In this document: positions 42,228-55,593 of the stretch, piece by piece | Numbering within the stretch: the stretch's first letter is position 1 | Layout of the letters: each line of letters begins with the position of its first letter | NCBI GenBank assembly: GCA_025677825.1 | Contig: JAIXMO010000019.1 | Location: 186,001-250,000, forward strand | Direction of reading: 5' to 3' | Origin: Helicostylum pulchrum | Lineage: Eukaryota; Mucoromycota; Mucoromycetes; Mucorales; Mucoraceae | Length of the DNA: 64,000 bases | Notes under the pieces: model-generated | The model's database searches: none | What the model was told of the DNA's origin: nothing | What the model saw: only the letters and a program-made list of their open reading frames with translations | Translations under genes and position numbers: made by a program

Positions 42228-42437
42228 TTATGCTCTACGACGAGCAATAGTGTAAGCCATTCCGTTGCAAATAAGAGACATTTGATCAATATCTACATAG
42301 ACAGGGCTATGGAACAGTTGGCATTGAATCCAGCTGGAAGCATTATGGCACCATAAACTTTCAATATGTTTTTGTGCTGCCGTATCAAGAGCGACCCAAG
42401 CAGAGCCGTTAGCGTAAACCCATTGAACAGAACCCAT
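42228..42437 (-). CDS. WWE-A: stand-alone WWE-like domain protein (69 aa)
   Basis: Intronless. The whole protein is one domain: W6 in QWVYANGS, W14 in AWVALD, IE at 25-26, W29, VYVDIDQM at 46-53, and Y62-x-I-A-R66 at the end. This order, W...W...IE...VD-x-x-M...Y/R-x-I-R, fits the WWE domain, which in PARPs, Deltex, RNF146 and HUWE1 binds ADP-ribose units (iso-ADP-ribose in RNF146). Here it is stand-alone, with no catalytic or targeting part and no signal peptide. About 44 of 69 residues are identical to WWE-C by eye, with no gaps. A TATA box (TATAAATAG, minus strand 42552-42544) lies about 110 bp upstream. The WWE assignment is from pattern, not from a profile search. Confidence 0.8.
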   Translation of the reverse strand: MGSVQWVYANGSAWVALDTAAQKHIESLWCHNASSWIQCQLFHSPVYVDIDQMSLICNGMAYTIARRRA

Positions 42438-44765
42438 TGTTTTATATAATTGATTGTTTAATTGAGACTTTGTATTTAAGAGAGTAAGTTAAATTGAGAC
42501 TTGTATTAGTTAATTAAAATAAATGTAAGGGGGAGTCTCTTCTCTATTTATACTTGACAGATTTACAGTTTGCTCTCTTCCATCTATTTTTAATAAAAAT
42601 TACAGGTTTCTTTTTAAAGTAACTGGATTGCTTAGTTGGGAGACCTATTGTTCTTTCCACAGTCTTTGATCACTCCGCAGTGTTAATTTGATATATTTGA
42701 GCCCTTTTGTACCACATATAACCCACAATAAAAGGAAATAATAAAGTTAATTCATTGCAGTCACCTGGGGGATATGGATTTTTACGCCTCAAACAAGTTT
42801 TTTTTATATTAGAATTAGAATTGTATACATCTTTTTTTTTTTACATGTATAAAATAAAATTCATTGAAAGAAAATACCGGGGGGGGGGGTTATTAAATAT
42901 GTAATTTAGTTTGTAAACACTGTATAAAAAAAATATTGAAGCGTGTAACGTAGCATAAATTTTTGTATCTCACGAAATGGCGAGCATGTAAATCTCATAT
43001 TTATTTTTAGCATTCTATCATATAGTTGTGTGGGTGTGGCTAGTTGGAGGGCGTATACCCTGTACCCAAAAAAAGGTATTAATAATCAATTCAAACCGTT
43101 ACTAATCTCTCAGCATTCCGATCCGTGCGTAGTCAATTAAGAGATACTATACTTGTTCAAACCAATCATTAACATATTTAATTTTGGATACCTAGCTATG
43201 CTTTATCAAGTAAATTTTTGCACTGCGGTTGTGTTGTGCAAGAATCGAATTACATTGCCTCGTCAGGGTGTCCATTAAATCCAGACTTCTCTCTCTTTGA
43301 AACACACATAACCTATATCGAGAAAGACAGCTATTTCAAGATCTTGATACTACCGTTTTTTTTTAAATAATGATCGATTAGGTAAGTGGATCATAGAGAA
43401 TATACATCCAATCAAAGTTTCGATTTTTTTTTTAAAAAAAAGGGTACAAGCCAGTTAAAGAGGCGCGAAACATAGCTTGCCGCGTGGCTGTGTGAACATG
43501 TAGTGCAACAATACCTTGAATTATACGATTCTATTCTTACGGTACTTTTGAGTTTGTCGCGTCATCTTGCCATTCTAGAATATGAGGCGCATTAAAACCT
43601 GACGGATACTGAAGTAGTAGTCAGATGTATTCTTATATCAAGCGTGATCTCTCTTTCAAAGCAATTGGTAAACGATGGGTATTTACTGAGTTGTTTACTT
43701 GTCAAATAAATTTATGTTGTGTGGGTTCTAACTAACGCAGTCATTAATTCTTTTTTCTGCTCTTGTAAATTAGCAGTCTTTTATGAAACCCCTCCTTTAT
43801 GTAACGCGAGATCCCAGTCGTTGGGTCGAGTAATACTACGTAGTTTAAACTTGGAATTGCGCCTAAAAACTTCGCCTAAAAAACAAGTCATGCAATAAAG
43901 AAAATAAAAACAATCATTATACCAATAAAGAAAAACAAAATACATTTTTCTTCAAATATTTTATTTTCAAATGTACTATTATTGCCACTTTCAATAATTA
44001 TATGCATAATTTATATGGAAAAAAAAGGATTGATTGTTACAATTGATACAGACACTTCGTTAAATTACTAAGGCAAAAGCAAATCTATTCAGCCTAAAAC
44101 CTTATATTTTTGTAGGTATCAATGATTTTCAGTGCCTTATAAAGCAATAAATCGCGTGGATCTTTAATCAAAGTTAAAAAACGTATGTTCGAGTTTTACT
44201 AATTATAAATGATGCAGAATGGGCTATGAAAAGGGATTTTTTTTATGATAAGCCAAATCTAATAGTGTAAAACCTTTCCCCTGCTTGATTTTCGCATAAA
44301 AAAAAAGAATAAATCTAATAATATGGAAAAAAAATTATAGTTTGTAGGGGAAACGCGGAGAGAGGATGTAAATAATTTCGTATTGTATTCTAATAGAGAA
44401 TTTACAATTTTCGTGGCAGGAGAGAGATGAAATAAACGTTAGGGTTTTGTCACAACCCTTTTTTTATTGTATTTTTTTAAAGTGCGCTATATTTATCGAT
44501 TCAGTGATAATTACAACAAAAAGTAAAAATAGAACCTTCAATTCTATTTAGGCATGCATGCATATTTGTTCTAAATATTAAAACAAGAATACCAGTTTTG
44601 GTTTCTGCAAATCCCATTTTTTTTATCTATAAACTTGGATTTAAAAGAATGTTCTTGTTTATTCGAAAAAAGAAAAATTTATGTGCTATAGTAACCAAAT
44701 AAAAATAAAAACACAATGATAAAAATACATGGACACTATTATTCCTTTGCAGAAAAAAGCCATGG
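42438..44765. other. Sparse DNA between WWE-A and WWE-B
   Basis: Apart from the TATA box of WWE-A at 42544-42552, no gene is recognised in about 2.3 kb. There is a T10A8 palindrome at 43424-43441 and a G10 run near 42879. Open frames are short and unlike coding sequence. Confidence 0.5.
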
Positions 44766-44960
44766 TCAGACGCGAGCAACAGTATAAGAAGTTCCATCAA
44801 AGATGAGTGACATTGTAAGAATGTCAAAGTAAGCAGTACCTTCCAAGAAACTGCAGGTCATATAAGCGGAACTATTACGGTTCCAAAGACGTTCAATATC
44901 CAACTGAGACAATTGATCCAGTTCAGACCAAGCTCCTCTTGCAGCAATTACCCAAGTCAT
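44766..44960 (-). CDS. WWE-B: stand-alone WWE-like domain protein (64 aa)
   Basis: The shortest member. W3, W11 in AWSELD, IE at 22-23 with W26, FDILTM at 45-50, and Y59-x-V-A-R63 hold the same pattern as WWE-A, with the N-terminal QWVYANG changed to TWVIAARG and a shorter first loop. Intronless. TATAAAAG on the minus strand at 45052-45045 is about 90 bp upstream of the ATG. It is more diverged from A, C and D than they are from each other, yet the spacing of the landmark residues is kept. Confidence 0.75.
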   Translation of the reverse strand: MTWVIAARGAWSELDQLSQLDIERLWNRNSSAYMTCSFLEGTAYFDILTMSLIFDGTSYTVARV

Positions 44961-45052
44961 GATATTAAGCAGTTATTTTCTTGGTTTTTTTTTTAAAAAA
45001 AAAGCTTAAAAAAAAAAAAGGTAAAAATCAATTGAAATTTTATTCTTTTATA

Positions 45053-46161
45053 CTGAAAATAAAAAAAACAAGTGTGCTCAAAGGTAATAGAATTTACTAG
45101 CTTAGCCAATTAATCTTGTGATTAAGACTTGTAGAACATTTTAGAGCCCAAGCCTTGTGACACCGTATTTAAAGATGTTGATGAAGAAATTTTCTACTTT
45201 CATAAAGACATATACATATATTCATCGATGTATAGAGTATAATCAAATTATATTGAAAGGCGCAATTTATTGCATGAAGTGCACCGAATTGCTGCGATGA
45301 TCTTTTTTTTTTTTGAAAAAAAAACATGCCATTCTAATCTTTAAATAATTTGTTTCGAAAATTACATATACACATATATGCACGCGTTTTATATTTATTT
45401 GCAATGGCGTGAATAGATTTACTTTTTACTCTTTACCAAACTAGATAAAGAAATTAATAATGAAATATCTAAATGAGAAAAATAAATAAATAACAGTTTT
45501 AGTGGGCCGAAAACGATAATCCCAAATTGACGATTGCTAAATACAGATAATCTGTACTTATCAAACTTAAATGCAACGTATTACGGCTAAAGAACAGCTG
45601 ACGCTTTTTTTTTAATGTAGAGTTACCGGGAAATATATAAATCATTATTGAATTGTGTCTTTGAACTCCTCATCGCCGATTCGGTAATACCATATATGTA
45701 GTTTAGAACTTAGAATTAAGTCAGATCGGAAGCTCATTTTACTTTAGCCCCACAATGATTAATATGATGGCATTTAGGTATATTGTTACAGTAATCTTAT
45801 ACGTTTTTTTTTAAAAAATTGAACTCGCGCAAGATCTTGTACGAATACTAGAAATACAAGTGCTACCTAACACGGTGATAATAGAAAAAATATAAACTCT
45901 AAATAAAGTAATTTGTTGTATCAGTTATACGTTTAAAGTAAAGTAAAAAGGACTATGAATTTTTTTTTCAGAAGCATCATGTATAATTTATTATTTAAAG
46001 AGTAAAGCGTAAAGGAGCATAATTGTAGGGCATATAGTTAAAAGCATAAAAGGGGAGTTATAAAGGTATATTGGTATGTTTCTGTAAAATAACAGTAAAA
46101 AAATGTATAGTATAATAGTTTAATTTTGGTAGTCTAAGAGGGGAGGTATTCGCTATTGTCT
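45053..46161. other. Sparse DNA between WWE-B and WWE-C
   Basis: No gene recognised. It contains a T9A6 tract near 45804-45818 and an MCB-like ACGCGT at 45383-45388 that is not near any gene start. Confidence 0.5.
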
Positions 46162-46371
46162 TCATTTTCTACGACGAGCGATACTGTACGACATGCCCTC
46201 GCACATAAGGGTCATTTGAGAAATATCAACATACACCGCGCTACGAAATGATCTGCTTTTAATCCAGCTGGAGGCATTGTATTCCCATAGACTCTCAATA
46301 TCTTGTTGCGCAGATGAATCGAGCGTTACCCAAGTACAACCATTAGCATAAACCCATTGTATAGCAGTCAT
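46162..46371 (-). CDS. WWE-C: stand-alone WWE-like domain protein (69 aa)
   Basis: Closest relative of WWE-A, same length. W6 (IQWVYANG), W14 (TWVTLD), IE 25-26, W29, SSWI at 34-37, VYVDISQM at 46-53 and Y62-S-I-A-R66 with a basic end RRRK. Intronless; a TATA box (TATAAAAAGG, minus strand 46486-46477) lies about 110 bp upstream, almost the same distance as for WWE-A and WWE-E. Differences from WWE-A fall mostly on predicted surface positions between the conserved residues, as expected for a gene kept by selection. Confidence 0.8.
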   Translation of the reverse strand: MTAIQWVYANGCTWVTLDSSAQQDIESLWEYNASSWIKSRSFRSAVYVDISQMTLMCEGMSYSIARRRK

Positions 46372-46486
46372 GTTGTGATAAGGATTTTTTTAAAGCGTAA
46401 ATAAAAAAAGTATAATAGTTTAGATTTATCCAGGGCTAGAAGTATATGAAAGGGGGATGTTTAGAAAAATCAAAATCCTTTTTATA

Positions 46487-47369
46487 TTAATTGACACATA
46501 AATGTCAATCTATTCTTAAACATGAAATAGACGAAGGCGATCTGTATGATAAAGTACAAAAGTTCCTTTTTTAAAGTCTGTGGGAGGCGCCACATTCTTC
46601 TATGTTTAGGTACTTTGTAGATTTCTGGCTTGAATACACAATAAAGCAGACGCCACCCGAGTCTCTTTTTTTTTTCGCACATTAAAATATTGGATGTGTA
46701 CAACCCGTTTTCTAGCCACATCCCTTTTTATATTTCAATGCATAAACATACTCCTGATTGGATATAAAAATACTTCTAGGCTCAAGTTCATTTTATACAT
46801 AACATTTGCATGTAAGGCTTCAGTTAATTAAAGGCGCTTTGTTTACTTCATAGGTATGCACATCCAGCCAATTACTTCCCCCACCCCCAGGGTTTTAGGT
46901 TGTTTAGTAAATCCGGGAGATGCAAAATGTTTACCTTCAACTATAGTGTTTATTAACATATATGCTCTATGCCAATTAACAAATTTATTTTATTTTTATA
47001 AAAAAACGGTATATTTATAACCTTGATGTGATACAAAAAAACCCTGGTGTTTTTTTACGACGTCATTACACAACAAAGCTTTCTTTATGTTACATTTTAT
47101 AAAAGCCGAATAACATTTATTTCTTTTACCCTTTTTGTAACATCATCTCGGTCAGTTAATACAGGGAAGTCAATAACTTCTTCGATTGTGCACCAATAGT
47201 AAACGCAACAACAAAGATAAATTTCCTGAAACAATAAGGTCACGACTTACTTTATTTTTTTATATCTTATAAAAGAATGTATCGAAAATACACAGCTATT
47301 AGTTATTAAAGCAACTGTGGGATGTTTAGTTTTTGAAGCATTGATTTTATTTTGATATATTGTAGTATA
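46487..47369. other. Intergenic stretch between WWE-C and a broken gene
   Basis: No gene recognised. CACCCCCAGGGTTTTAG near 46881-46899 resembles the left tip of the 24-kb element (CAGGGTTTTAG) over 11 bases only. Confidence 0.4.
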
Positions 47370-48603
47370 TTATAAGAAGATATCGGAATTACTCAAATTG
47401 TAATTTTCTTCTTGCGTGTTGCGAGCCTTCTTTATCACGTCTTCTTTGGATTGTCTTTTACTATGCTCAGATTTAGATTCAAGAGCGAACACCAAGTGTT
47501 GGTAGTGGTTTGCTACAATAGAAAAGTCTCCTTTTCGAACATGCTTACCCAAGGAGGGATCAATATCAGTTAATCTCTTTTTAGACTCGATAGTTTCTTT
47601 ATTTGCACCAAATGTCATTTATCTTTTGCTATTTGAAAAGTGTTGATCCAAAAATGATAAAATACCATCTTTGATAGCTGTGTTCTCGTTTGCAGTTTTA
47701 ATTCAGTAACCCTTGCGATATGTTTGTTTTCTGAGATAGGTAGATAAATAAATAAATACAACAATAACAATTTAATAAATATTGATACTTACAAAGAGTA
47801 CAAGATGTATTTGATATGGACGGGTAAACAAGATTCATTTACTTTAGGTTCTGCTTCAGTAAACTCTCGTTCTACAATCAACTATGTAAAATATATTAAT
47901 TATTAAGTTTAGAGCACTTTTTTTTTTCAAATGTACCTTTGAAAACTGATGAATAATGTCGGCCTAAGATTTGTCATCATCATCTAAAAGTATAATACTA
48001 TTTAACGAAAGTTCCTCGTCAGGTTTTGATAAAACGTTACAGTCTGTACAATTTTCAATTAATTCATTTCTTCTTCTTAAAAAAGAAGTTGAAATACCAT
48101 GGCCATTATTTAGTATGTACTTGTTGTCAATACTCTCCAAGTTAATAACATCATTTGCATTAGCAGAAACGAGATAATCTTGAGTTTTTATTAGGCTTGG
48201 CAGTTGCGAGCTCTTCGGTAGAATCTGCGCTTGGGATACTTGTTCTATTTCTTCTTCTTCGTCTGTATCTGAGCTGACATTTTTATCAGAACCATCGGCA
48301 TCATCACTAATATTTACTAAAAAGGATTAATATAGAAAAAAAATACGTGGACTAGAATAAGATAAAAAGCAAATCTGTGGTATTTTTGAGGATACCTGTA
48401 TAAGTGGAGCCCATAATAATTTGGCGGATTTCATGGTCTTGTACTAGCTTATGTCTGACAGTCGCTTTAGGCAGAACCGTGTCCTTTTGTACGGATATAA
48501 AGAAAAAAAAACTGCTAGAAAATAAGATGCATAATAATAAGATATACGCTCCCTCAAAAAATACACATATAAATATATAATACTTACTGGTGGCATTACG
48601 CAT
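47370..48603 (-). pseudogene. Broken multi-exon gene with a possible PD-(D/E)XK-like segment
   Basis: Minus strand. From an ATG at 48603 a 16-nt exon may lead to DTVLPKATVRHKLVQDHEIR and IIMGSTYT, then after an intron to NISDDADGSDKNVSSDTDEE and a long segment up to LLDDDDKS at about 47966, where TAG interrupts; ADIIHQFSK continues in frame. Next come REFTEAEPKVNESCLPVHIKYIL and, after an intron, NTAIKDGILSFLDQHFSNSKR, a TAA, and TFGANKETIESKKRLTDIDPSL up to the end at 47370. The last part has KGDFSIVANHYQHLVFALESK, a D...ExK spacing reminiscent of PD-(D/E)XK nucleases. One splice phase near the N-terminus does not fit. I think it is a decayed member of a multicopy Mucorales family that landed inside the WWE array. 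Confidence 0.5.
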
Positions 48604-49047
48604 CGTAAAAGAAGAAGAAAAAAGAGATTTATCTATTCTAAAAAAAAAAAAAAAAAAAGATAAATAAATACGCGTTGGGCTAATAAAATACGTCGCTTTT
48701 ACTCGCGTGATCTACACTTGTTCTACACTTGTTTGGTGACATTTTTGCTTATTTTTTTTTTTGGATGCTTCATTCAATCTTGTACTTTTATTAAGAACAT
48801 CATTGCCCTATTGAAAACTTTTGAAAAAATCAATAATACTTATATGTTATCGAGAATAAATAAAATAAAATTATGCATTTTATTTCTCTATGTATTTAAA
48901 CTACGGATATTTATAAAGTGAAGAAGAAAGAAAGTAAACTGAAAGGTACCAGAAAGAGAATTTCACGCTGATTACGTGAGAGGGAAAACAAATGAAGTCG
49001 GGAATACAAATGTACATAAACAAAAGTTTAAATCTTGTAGATATTAT

Positions 49048-49254
49048 TTAACTATTTCTACGGGCAATAACATATGAAAGACCTGCAAACATGAGCACCA
49101 TTTCACTTGTATCAACATAGACCGGACCACGGAAAGAGTCACTAGCAATCCAACTTGAAGCATCTCTAGTCCATAAGGTTTCTATTTGAAATTGAGCATT
49201 ACGATCTAAAGTAACCCAGGTAGACCCGTTAGCATAAACCCATTGAGCAGCCAT
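49048..49254 (-). CDS. WWE-D: stand-alone WWE-like domain protein (68 aa)
   Basis: Close to WWE-A and WWE-C. W5 in AQWVYANGS, W13 in TWVTLD, IE at 24-25, W28, SSWI at 33-36, FRGPVYVD to D48, M52 and Y61-V-I-A-R65. Intronless, with an AT-only TATA-like tract (TATATATATA, 49329-49339) about 80 bp upstream. Three residues next to the shared landmarks (T at 49, E at 51, V at 53) separate it from A and C. Confidence 0.8.
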   Translation of the reverse strand: MAAQWVYANGSTWVTLDRNAQFQIETLWTRDASSWIASDSFRGPVYVDTSEMVLMFAGLSYVIARRNS

Positions 49255-50014
49255 TTTTTATTTTTTTAAAGTGGTGATTGGAGATAAAGTGTTTGTTGTA
49301 AAAATAAAATAAATATGACAATGCTCGCTATATATATATGATTCTTCCCATTGTTTGTATATGGCTGTGTCATTAAATATTGGCTTAATGGTGCCTCTTT
49401 TAATTTGGGCGCGAAAAAAAAAGTTTCTCGAAGCGTGAAGTTTTTTCGGCGCCCTTAAAATAGATTATACTTATTTGGGGAGTCACGTTGTACAAATCGA
49501 AAAGTTACAAATATGGTTTTAATAACCAAATTCGAAATCTAAAATTCAAAACAGTAATATGAAGAAGAGAGAAAATATAATCCAATGACGTTTTAAATAC
49601 CAAGGATTATTGAATTACAAATAAAGATAATTATACCGTGAGATTGGTTTATATTAAAAGTGTCGATTATTTATTAAGTTTTGTGATTTTTTACAATGTT
49701 TTAGAGGGTATTTAAAGTAATTTTGTAAGGTTTTTTTTTTTTAAGTATATGCAATAAAACTTTTTCAGTTTCTTTAGGGTATTATAAATATAATTTTCTA
49801 ATTTTTTTTTTTTGAGGGTATTTTGATATGTGCAATGTGGTTTATATATACATGTGTTTAAGCTTCAGTAAGGCCAATATAGAGAGTCATAAATATATTT
49901 TCTGCTGCTGAATTTTTTGCTTGAGAGTCATAAAAAAAGCGTTTGGCTGGATGTTGGAGTACATAATAGATCATAAAATTCATACAGAACATAATATAGA
50001 GTTTTTTTTTGGGA
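49255..50014. other. Short intergenic stretch between WWE-D and WWE-E
   Basis: Holds the WWE-D promoter and the WWE-E 3' region. No further gene recognised. GCGCC motifs occur at 49410-49416 and 49450-49455. Confidence 0.4.
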
Positions 50015-50215
50015 CTAAACCCTAGCGATACTATATTCAATACTATTGTGGTTTAAAACCATTCTGTCTAAATTAACGTAAACAAGACCTCGGAACGTAC
50101 CAGAATTGATATATTGCGAATGATTTCTTGACCAACAGTACTCTACATTTCTAGCTGATACATCATCTAATGGAAGCCATGACGAACCGATAGAAATGTA
50201 CCATCTTAATGCCAT
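50015..50215 (-). CDS. WWE-E: stand-alone WWE-like domain protein (66 aa)
   Basis: Diverged member. W5 in LRWYISIG, W13 in SWLPLD, VE at 24-25 (Val for Ile), W28, YI at 35-36, FRGLVYVN with Asn48 instead of Asp, M52 and Y61-S-I-A-R65. The W-W-E core is kept. Intronless; TATAAATAC on the minus strand (50329-50321) is about 110 bp upstream, and a GA-rich tract (GAGAGAGGGAGAGAGAG type) lies between TATA and ATG. Confidence 0.75.
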   Translation of the reverse strand: MALRWYISIGSSWLPLDDVSARNVEYCWSRNHSQYINSGTFRGLVYVNLDRMVLNHNSIEYSIARV

Positions 50216-50330
50216 TTTATGTTGTTGTTATCTAAAGAAAAAAAAAGGGGATTAGTGCGACTTTAGTGTGAATAAGAGAGGGAGAGAGAGAAAAAAAAAA
50301 GAGAAGGGATCAAAACCATTGTATTTATAG

Positions 50331-52784
50331 CAGTATTTAGTTTTTTTTTATAAAAAATCGATTTTATATGTCATGTCTGTTTCCTTTGTTGCCAGATAAT
50401 TCGTTGATCTAATAGGTTAACAGTACACAGGTACAGAAAACATGCATATAGTTAAGAAGTGTAATAGAAATTTCGAATGGAATAAAAAGAATGATCTATT
50501 GGCAGATTAAAGTGGTCCTAAACTCTGCAAATTCTCAAATAAAGCTATGTAAAGTTAAACTGCCAAGAAAAAAAAACTGTAATCTGAATTGGAATGGGTG
50601 TTCGATAGATAGTATATGAAGAAAAGTAATACATTATATAAAATAAATGTTCGAGGTCTGAGCCATCATGTGTGGCAGAGCTCTCGGAACAAGCCTCAAG
50701 TCCATAACAGTTCACCGAAATTTTGATTCCTAATTTGGTATGTACAGAAAAAAACTCATGTGATGAGAATGACCTCATATGAATGGTTGCTGTAAAAAAA
50801 AAAGGCGGGATGAAGAAGACTAAATGTACATGATCATGCTTAATATTACGTTTTAAAAGGATCTGTCAAAGAAGTTTAAACTGGAGGAGGTTGAAGGTAA
50901 ATAATAATTGACATGTCTTTTTTTAGCAGACACAAATCATTTTTTTATGCTCTAGGCAGATCCAAAATGTAATGTAATCGAGTCACAAATCAATCATTAT
51001 TGGTCACTTTATACTTTATACTTTATACTTTGATATTGATATTGATATATTATGCAAAAGGGTCTGCACAATTTTTTTTTAAAAAAAGAGTGCAAGGTCT
51101 TATTTTCAAAAACAAAATTAAACGGAATTCTAGACCGTTTATATGAAAGTATCTAGTAGCTAAGAATACTAAAAAAAAAAAGAAGCTGTTAAGAGTGTAC
51201 CCACGCATGTAAACCCGGACTAGAACCCCTTCGTGCGATACCAACTATAATGAACGTATCTTCAGGTACAATGTGGATAATAGGGTTTGAAATAACCAGG
51301 GAAAAAACAGATAATTAAAAGGGATGCATGTATTAGCTTAAATTAAGGGAAAGAGCTGGCAACCTCTTTTTTTTTATTATTTTTAGACAGGATGCATTAT
51401 GGTTACTGAATACCGGGCTCAAACTAAAGGGTGATCGTGACTGTAACATGAACACAAGTACTTGTGGGACACAATTCTATTTTTATACTTGGTAAGGGGT
51501 GAAACCTCACATTCCAATTTTACAGTTTAAATCAAAAAAAAAAAAATGTATGCTCGAGAACTATCAATTATGTTCTCACACTTTGAAAGCTTGAATGACC
51601 CAAGAATTTTATAACCAATTACAAGTCTGTACCTTATCTTTTGATGGGAGATGAGCCTTTCCCGATGCTCTCCGTAACTAGAACCACGTTGGTAAAAAAA
51701 AAAAAAAGGAACGTTTCTGGTAGCTTACACTTCATACATAATTTACAGTTTTCTGTTTGTTAATATGTAAAAAAATTATATTTAATCAGCCAATAAAAAT
51801 AGACCTTCACCTATGCTGTTGCGCCACTTGCACGGAAAAAAACAAAGGATACAGGTTAAATATTACGATCCTTACAACATGATCGACATATACTTTTTGT
51901 TGTTGCATCTACCGTGATGGCCACACTTTTTTATTATATCGTGACCATCATGCGTTTTATTTATATATGAAGTATGACATTACGGTGGGCCTTGTTTACA
52001 CTGTTGAAACAAAGCATGCATATGTTTACAAACCCTGTAAATATTATATTATTAAATACACGTAACGTTAGCATAAGGGGCCACATAATTTTAGAATGAC
52101 GCTATCTACCATTTTTCTCTCTATTTTTATTTTTATTTTCTTACTAAAGAAGAGTGTGGGGCATGTTGCTGTTCGGTTCACTTGCATGAAAGTAACATAA
52201 GAGTTGGGGCAAAGGGAGAAAAAGTTGGACAGCTAATTAACGAGTTACTAAAATGAGATAGTCCGCAGCTATACGTAAATGACGCAAGGAAAAATAAATA
52301 GAAGAGGAGGAAGTTTTGTTATTACGTAAAGATCTTTTAAAAATACTGAGGTTAAATCATGCACGGACCACTAGCTTATATTCACCTTTTTGCAGCTGTG
52401 TGGTCTTAACTGAGTTAGATATAGCAAAAATGTTTTTGTTTTGTAAATAGTATAATAATATTTATAATTGTAACTGCTCTTCTCCCGCATAGAAGGGCAA
52501 GTAAGTTATTTTAATCCTTTATAGGTCTCAATACAGTAAAGTAATATAAATAAAGATCTTTATTTTTTTTAAAAAAACAAACTATATACAGTTAATGTAT
52601 TTTCAAATAGAGTAGTGGTAGAAGGAAGGTTAATGTTAAATTGTAAGTAAAAGATCCACCAAATGTTAAGCTGTTTGCGAGTAGCATAATTTCATAGATA
52701 AATAGAGCATAAAAAAGCATATTTAAAAGAGGATTTATCATAACCACAGTCGGTATATATACAAAAAAGAAAATACATTGTGAA
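50331..52784. other. Sparse DNA between WWE-E and WWE-F
   Basis: About 2.4 kb without a recognised gene. Short direct repeats (ACTTTATACTTTATACTTTATACTTTG at 51006-51031 and GATATTGATATTGATAT after it), a T9A7 palindrome at 51072-51087 and a T8A7 palindrome at 52563-52577. Short open frames do not look coding. Confidence 0.5.
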
Positions 52785-53000
52785 TCAAGAGTCAACATAG
52801 CAACGCGCAACAGCATAAATACGATCACCATGAAGTATCTCCATCGAAGGAAAACATATATAGATACGTTGTCTTTGAAATGAATCAGAAACACACCAAC
52901 CTTGACTTCCATTTTCCCAATGAAACGTAAGAGCGCGCGAGGTATTTATATCTAAAACTTGCCATTGAGAGAAAATAGCAACTTTCCAAATAAGAGGCAT
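52785..53000 (-). CDS. WWE-F: most diverged stand-alone WWE-like protein (71 aa)
   Basis: W5 in LIWKVAIF, W13 in QWQVLD, W28 in HWENGS, W35, SFQRQRIYI at 40-48, M53 and Y62-A-V-A-R66. The Glu of the IE pair is lost (LT at 24-25) and the VD is replaced by IC, so ADP-ribose binding may be weakened or gone, if the family has it. A five-residue tail (CYVDS) follows the usual end. Intronless, TATA box TATAAAAGG at 53070-53062 on the minus strand, only about 65 bp upstream. Alone it would be hard to recognise; its position and spacing link it to the array. Confidence 0.65.
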   Translation of the reverse strand: MPLIWKVAIFSQWQVLDINTSRALTFHWENGSQGWCVSDSFQRQRIYICFPSMEILHGDRIYAVARCYVDS

Positions 53001-53070
53001 TTTTTTCTTTTATTTTTATTTAGTTGACAGGCAAAAGAGAAAAAGTAAAAAAAAGAGAGAGCCTTTTATA

Positions 53071-54960: not shown

Positions 54961-55593
54961 TTATAAAGCTGTCTCTTTCATTTTCTTGTACTGATTATAC
55001 ACTAAATTGGGATCAGATATTTGATCTCTATGAAAGACTTCTTGTTGGCTACGGTCATCAGTAATATTATTTCGAACATAGCTATTCAATTGGCGTTGAA
55101 CCTCTTTACAGTCATGTCCTTCCCTCAATTTCTGTCGAATAAACTCTTTTGTGGCCTTTGAAACAGGTAGCAAACAAAAATCTTCTTTTGTTCCAACCGC
55201 ATGATTATGCTGATTTTTAAAAGTGAATACAACGTTACCCGGATCTTTTTTATAGCAAGTAATTCTCATACCGGCAGGACACCCAATCTTTTTTGACTCC
55301 TTTTGACGTGGTCTCTTTTTAGAAGTAATCGTCTTTCTAGGCCCTGTTATTTCCTTTTCACCACCTCGATGACAGAAAAAAGTCTTGTACCAAGAATGCA
55401 AGGTAATTCTTCTTCTTTTGACAGGTTCTGTTCTTGTCTCGTGATTTGTTGATTGATAGAACTTTCCTGCAATCCACACCACTGCATATTTATCTGGGAA
55501 AGTCTCTATAACTTGGTCCATTTGATCAAGAGGAACTTTAATTTCTTCAGGAATAGGAACATACGGCTTGATTTGAGGAGTTGATGATGCCAT
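54961..55593 (-). CDS. FAR1/MULE-type zinc-finger DNA-binding protein (210 aa)
   Basis: Intact single exon. The region at about residues 40-135 has the layout of the zinc-binding N-terminal domain of Mutator-like (MULE) transposases and FAR1/WRKY-GCM1 proteins: HSWYKTFFCHRGGEKE, a basic spacer, KKIGCPAGMRITCYKKD and FKNQHNHAVGTKED, giving Cys...Cys...His-x-His ligands. A helix-rich region (ATKEFIRQKLREGHDCKEVQ) follows, as in MULE proteins. The DDE/MULE domain is absent, so it is either a truncated transposase or a domesticated DNA-binding domain. It diverges from the MULE pseudogene at 55797 with 203 bp between starts. Confidence 0.6.
   Translation of the reverse strand: MASSTPQIKPYVPIPEEIKVPLDQMDQVIETFPDKYAVVWIAGKFYQSTNHETRTEPVKRRRITLHSWYKTFFCHRGGEKEITGPRKTITSKKRPRQKESKKIGCPAGMRITCYKKDPGNVVFTFKNQHNHAVGTKEDFCLLPVSKATKEFIRQKLREGHDCKEVQRQLNSYVRNNITDDRSQQEVFHRDQISDPNLVYNQYKKMKETAL

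Follow-up and report, generated by a model that had tools for sequence, protein, structure and literature searches.

We analysed a window of 64,000 nucleotides of the Helicostylum pulchrum genome (contig JAIXMO010000019.1; C80:186001-250000, where C-numbers designate contigs of this genome). Six genes packed into 11 kb of this window code for proteins of 64-71 amino acids (aa) that are each predicted, from structure models, to fold as a single WWE domain. Two of the four residues that contact the adenosine monophosphate (AMP) part of the ligand in the WWE domain of RNF146, a Gln and an Arg, appear from alignments to be replaced throughout the family to which these proteins belong. The explanation that we favour, with a confidence a little above even, is that they are free WWE modules whose ADP-ribose pocket has been altered and that likely serve as diffusible binders or adaptors for some other partner. 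Such mini-WWE proteins are not described in the literature that we found on WWE domains in Mucorales, fungi and giant viruses. Constrained free proteins of 64-73 residues that keep the predicted fold but have dropped two defining residues are well suited to finding out which other ligands the WWE fold can bind, and they are small enough for direct study by nuclear magnetic resonance. The array genes are the following, pocket types being those defined further below:

42228..42437, minus strand: gene 1, predicted 69-aa mini-WWE protein, Tyr-type pocket; 68/69 residues identical to a Thamnidium elegans protein
44766..44960, minus strand: gene 2, predicted 64-aa mini-WWE protein, Ile-type pocket
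46162..46371, minus strand: gene 3, predicted 69-aa mini-WWE protein, Tyr-type pocket; WWE fold model
49048..49254, minus strand: gene 4, predicted 68-aa mini-WWE protein, Tyr-type pocket; no clear orthologue in the tree
50015..50215, minus strand: gene 5, predicted 66-aa mini-WWE protein, Ile-type pocket
52785..53000, minus strand: gene 6, predicted 71-aa mini-WWE protein, the most divergent of the array, Val-type pocket; WWE fold model

Translation confirmed these six open reading frames (ORFs), which an earlier note on this DNA had proposed, with no internal stop. That note called the genes intronless; the coding frames are indeed uninterrupted, but these data cannot reveal introns in untranslated regions. 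The sequence pattern that it described was found in part: W-x7/8-W-x-x-L-D and Y-x-I/V-A-R are each present in 6/6 proteins, but IE-x-x-W occurs in only four and VYVD-x3-M in only three of the six. The alignment of the six proteins has 10 invariant columns.

The assignment to the WWE fold is supported mainly by structure models. Those of the gene 3 and gene 6 products have a predicted local distance difference test score (pLDDT) of 92.6 and 93.0, respectively, and in structure searches both match WWE structures and no other fold clearly, the top Foldseek row for gene 3 being the WWE domain of PARP14. The predicted fold is a half barrel of six strands (E) and one helix (H) in the order E-E-H-E-E-E-E, as in WWE domains. 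In the family alignment, which has 78 rows (14 copies of the genome and 64 database relatives, among which the broken or mis-modelled P0068-P0070 were kept for column counts), W6 is found in 77/78, W14 in 76/77 and E26 in 75/78 rows, gene 6 being without the Glu. The Pfam model PF02825 taken alone is a weak guide. Among the six window proteins it matches only gene 1 (E 0.0016), whose 19.2 bits lie below the cut-off of 21.1, and four of the six match no WWE model in Pfam. It matches 6/14 family members at E up to 1 (best 1.9e-4), and in a six-frame scan of the genome one copy on C93 reaches 21.2 bits. Sequence searches of the PDB with one member and with a 14-member profile gave no match at E up to 10. 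The mini-WWE proteins share with the domains of PF02825 (RNF146, HUWE1, TRIP12, Deltex, PARP11, ZAP) the predicted fold, the strand order, the two Trp, the Asp/Glu positions, the Met that precedes strand 5 and the Arg that closes the domain. They differ in that the domain is the whole protein, in the replaced Gln and Arg, and in an identity of only 12-22% to the WWE structures listed in the structural alignment.

The literature generally presents WWE domains as modules that recognize poly(ADP-ribose) (PAR) (PMC8853533, PMC11269756). In the WWE domain of RNF146, Gln153 makes two hydrogen bonds to the adenine, Tyr107 stacks on it, and Arg163 and Tyr144 contact the proximal phosphate; these four residues hold the AMP part of iso-ADP-ribose (PMC8853533). 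The same paper reports that ZAP proteins in which the stacking Trp (W611A) or the Gln (Q668A, Q668R) was exchanged do not bind PAR, and the Gln contact is present in all structures compared in PMC11269756. In the mini-WWE family the residue paired with Gln153, residue 55, is Leu in 50, Ile in 18, Val in 6 and Met in 3 of 77 rows and Gln in none. Gln is also missing at residues 53, 54 and 57 and occurs once at 56; it is found at residue 52 in 37/77 rows, but there it precedes the Met and corresponds to N150 of RNF146. The residue paired with R163 by structural range (model residue 69 on chain residue 170) is Tyr62, a Tyr in 78/78 rows, and the Arg found around it are limited to residue 60 (2/77) and residue 61 (1/78), with none at 63-65. 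The stacking place of RNF146 Y107 is taken by Tyr in 66, Ile in 9 and Val in 3 of the 78 rows. For canonical short WWE proteins the matches listed have the Gln in 120/120 filled rows and the Arg in 23/26, in a set of 120 rows listed out of 242 matches that includes many Deltex proteins and is biased by the six-sequence profile used, in which the Gln was already invariant.

The earlier note had proposed that these proteins are free readers of ADP-ribose or PAR that might compete for, or shield, PARylated targets. With Gln replaced by Leu, Ile, Val or Met in 77/77 rows and Arg by Tyr in 78/78, two of the four AMP-contact residues are exchanged in the alignment and this function is not supported; the loss of PAR binding by ZAP proteins that lack the Gln (PMC8853533) points the same way. 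We regard it as unlikely, though several observations speak in its favour or against our own explanation. The predicted fold is that of WWE domains, and 66/78 rows keep the stacking Tyr that RNF146 has. A Tyr at residue 47, found in 64/77 rows, could replace Tyr144 if the strand had slipped by one; the weak profile alignment pairs Y144 with residue 46 (Val, Ala, Ile or Leu), the choice between 46 and 47 being ambiguous. The basic C-terminal tail, with Arg66 in 78/78, Arg67 in 45/77 and Arg68 in 37/73 rows, could provide other phosphate contacts. The pairing of residues itself combines a weak profile alignment with end-to-end structural ranges that give no residue list. The profile alignment to RNF146 (probability 46%, E 2e-4, one template) equates residues 49, 53 and 55 with D147, M151 and Q153. 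At the N-terminus it shifts the first Trp by two residues relative to the pairing used here, which is based on the identical spacing of W6-W14-D18 and W105-W113-D117 and on the structural range (model residue 2 on chain residue 101). It might also be that the pocket is filled and idle and that binding takes place elsewhere on the surface.

A further point in favour of ADP-ribose readers is that the genome has both a macro domain and a PARP gene. A single PARP gene was detected with PF00644, in two exons on C104 and with a WGR-like stretch recognized by eye, and PF01661 detected one macro domain, on C158. PARG was not found in the genome, a search in which no control genome gave a signal either, so that its absence is not established. 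PMC4245714 reports that Mucor circinelloides and Rhizopus delemar lack an obvious PARG. According to PMC2964712, Rhizopus oryzae and Mucor circinelloides have Clade 1 PARPs and Phycomyces has none. There are precedents for WWE domains that do not read PAR: PMC10450202 describes the WWE domain of PARP14 as a diverged one that does not bind PAR, and reports that in the PARP7/12/13-type MZAP only the second WWE domain reads PAR. The PARP14 domain and the first one of ZAP thus resemble the mini-WWE proteins in having a WWE fold described without PAR binding, but are parts of large PARP-type proteins.

If the mini-WWE proteins are binders for another partner, the polar and basic concave pocket of the RNF146 type would have become aromatic and aliphatic, its lining made up of Tyr (or Ile/Val) from strand 1, the aliphatic residue that replaces the Gln of strand 5 and the invariant Tyr that replaces the Arg of strand 6. 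The rebuilt surface could take a hydrophobic side chain, a peptide or a small molecule, and the proteins would act as small diffusible modules with a single binding domain. Within the array the pocket is of the Tyr type in genes 1, 3 and 4, of the Ile type in genes 2 and 5 and in a seventh copy introduced below, and of the Val type in gene 6. Because the array mixes Tyr-type and Ile/Val-type pockets, its members may serve different partners. A broader proposition, which we advance only tentatively, is that in Mucorales a domain for reading nucleotides gave rise to free mini-readers with a new hydrophobic specificity, kept as old conserved paralogues of two pocket classes, each with its own ligand or partner.

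The description of the domain as stand-alone and duplicated held well beyond the window. The family has 14 stand-alone copies in a genome of 32.2 Mb and 168 contigs: seven on C80 (six of them in the window), two on C93 and one each on C46, C100, C79, C158 and C2. A search with gene 3 found 12 further copies at E values from 8.7e-29 to 1.5e-8, which puts the family far beyond chance; gene 6 was missing from this list and was recovered as its own query, giving 14. All 14 frames are open over 64-73 aa, beginning a few residues ahead of the first Trp and ending shortly past the closing Arg, with no signal peptide apparent by eye. The seventh array member lies at C80:252827-253045, 2.8 kb beyond the window end (C80:250000). 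When the 78 family proteins served as tblastn queries against the window, no additional copy appeared: once the six genes and the sequence directly beside them are set aside, the best E is 0.012.

The 14-member profile found 65 proteins at E up to 0.01 including gene 5 itself, hence the 64 database relatives, in a search limited to proteins of 0.55-1.75 times the query length with shared exact words, which longer or more distant relatives can escape. A second round with 46 sequences gave 40 proteins, of which only P0071 and P0072 were new. This return, lower than that of the first round, indicates that the word-based candidate step limits the search, and the range of the family may be wider. 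A species name is given for 23 relatives, which represent 11 species (Thamnidium elegans, Pilaira anomala, Mycotypha africana, Gilbertella persicaria, Mucor flavus, Mucor mucedo, Choanephora cucurbitarum, Cokeromyces recurvatus, Parasitella parasitica, Cunninghamella blakesleeana and Helicostylum pulchrum), and the other 41 are nameless, mostly from metagenome records. Taxonomy look-up assigned 8/11 species to the Mucorales; the two Mucor species and Choanephora belong to the Mucorales. UniRef entries of Mucorales named “WWE domain-containing protein” belong to the same family, the label being automatic and given to some members only, and are silent on the array and on the changed pocket. The name “DOC domain-containing protein” carried by P0055 (Mucor flavus) and P0068 (Helicostylum pulchrum) is likely a mistaken automatic label.

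A tree of 75 of the 78 rows (without P0068-P0070), built on only 69 columns and showing many open forks and a long-branch warning, groups 10 of the 14 copies (genes 1, 2, 3, 5 and 6, the two copies on C93 and those on C46, C100 and C2) with rows from elsewhere, in starred sets of two to three rows. The seventh array copy stands in a starred set of five rows that also contains gene 6, and gene 4 and the copies on C79 and C158 have no clear orthologue. Partners from Thamnidium were found for genes 1 and 5, the C46 copy and the seventh copy, which has a metagenome relative as well; the near-identity of gene 1 to its Thamnidium counterpart (68/69 residues) makes a kinship of the source fungus with Thamnidium likely. 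One C93 copy (C93a) is paired with Mucor flavus, the C100 copy with Mucor flavus and Pilaira, and the C2 copy with Pilaira, while genes 2, 3 and 6 and the other C93 copy (C93b) have metagenome partners only. These groupings argue for an array of old paralogues with orthologues in other Mucorales.

The data also suggest that clustering of the family recurs in other species without being universal. Taking equal contig size as a proxy for the same contig, the Thamnidium relatives of genes 1 and 5 and of the seventh copy would lie on one contig of 400,373 bases, and relatives of genes 2 and 3 on one metagenome contig of 5141 bases. Gilbertella has three members on a contig of 291,129 bases, Choanephora two on 38,420 bases and Cokeromyces two with adjacent gene numbers on a contig of 1.17 Mb; the two Mycotypha members share a contig of 3.7 Mb, which carries little weight for clustering. 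The three members of Pilaira and the two of Mucor flavus are on different contigs.

Purifying selection acts between the closest copies. The C46 copy and gene 1, the closest paralogues of the genome, have a nonsynonymous divergence (dN) of 0.08 and a synonymous divergence (dS) of 1.01. The proportion of nonsynonymous differences (pN) is below that of synonymous differences (pS) in 90/91 paralogue pairs, synonymous sites being near saturation in most (pS at least 0.70 in 55/91). The motif TATAWAW is found between -170 and -50 of the ATG in 14/14 copies, the pattern and the stretch having been picked after viewing the upstream sequences. In 2000 sets of first-order Markov shuffles it was present on average in 2.1 and at most in 7 of the 14 copies. 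It was also found in 1-4/14 copies in 120-base slices wholly upstream of -200, in 687/4000 random slices of the window and at 4/10 other ATG-started ORFs. Since upstream DNA is shared only by the C46 copy and gene 1 (232 nt at 71%), the motif is not simply a copied flank, and its presence at each copy makes it likely that each is a separate transcription unit. The putative TATA motifs of the array are:

42546..42552, minus strand: TATA motif of gene 1 (-115)
45046..45052, minus strand: TATA motif of gene 2 (-92)
46480..46486, minus strand: TATA motif of gene 3 (-115)
49332..49338, minus strand: TATA motif of gene 4 (-84)
50323..50329, minus strand: TATA motif of gene 5 (-114; two more at -137 and -153)
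53064..53070, minus strand: TATA motif of gene 6 (-70)

The mini-WWE proteins could instead be microproteins that interfere with larger WWE proteins of the same cell, the single-domain copies blocking the partners of the larger ones. The genome does have longer WWE-like genes: PF02825 marked three weak places outside the mini-WWE family in the six-frame scan, on C133, C57 and C114. That on C133 (L014:1285-2169) is a frame of 295 aa with a WWE match of 23.5 bits, over the cut-off, and a second WWE-like stretch recognized by eye, and the frame on C114 matches WWE_2 and is next to a DUF7131 frame. A close sequence link between these genes and the mini-WWE family is not shown, and we know of no WWE domains that pair with each other between proteins. 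We consider this role improbable.

We also consider it very unlikely that the array is a conflict module, whether derived from viruses or directed against them. Short WWE proteins do occur in giant viruses, and structural matches of about 100-135 aa were found in Aureococcus anophagefferens virus, Terrestrivirus, Hyperionvirus and Marseillevirus LCMAC101, along with ten Bodo saltans virus entries (BFVD), most labelled WWE, among the 50 matches listed for the gene 3 model. Short viral proteins such as that of Aureococcus anophagefferens virus (101 aa) resemble the mini-WWE proteins in the fold and in being barely longer than the domain, but the matches are structural and have an identity of about 10-23% (10-20% for the four short ones). 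Genes 3 and 1, the two of the 14 copies tried, retrieved no sequence relative from viral_contigs, and the neighbouring genes are ordinary fungal genes; a viral or mobile origin was thus rejected as the main explanation. The Bodo saltans virus entries are themselves an instance of WWE expansion in a giant virus. Chance or decaying functionless ORFs, which the short frames, the AT-rich DNA and the four window proteins without a Pfam WWE match might suggest, can be dismissed in view of 14 intact copies, 64 relatives, selective constraint and promoter motifs.

A Pfam scan of 30 frames neighbouring this and other family loci identified ordinary fungal genes, with domains that include PRMT-like, AdoHcyase, ribosomal S13/S18, SNF2, WDR75-like, SET and aspartyl protease, and no functional theme common to these frames was seen. 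A protein with a FAR1 DNA-binding domain (54961-55593, minus strand; Pfam, E 5.9e-8) adjoins the array and is possibly the remnant of a transposon of the MULE (Mutator-like element) type. Gene 3 is flanked by a direct repeat (46109-46127 and 46409-46427; 14 nt exact, 19 nt at 89%, spacing 300 bases), possibly due to chance; its reading as a trace of transposition was dropped, about one such pair being expected in the window by rough reckoning. Repeat pairs near the other array genes are absent, one-sided or runs of T/A. Past the stop of gene 5, the segment 49861-50040 (minus strand) matches in another frame the C-terminal half of the Thamnidium model P0067 (54% over 61 residues); this model is probably mis-spliced, and conservation extends into the 3′ flank of gene 5.

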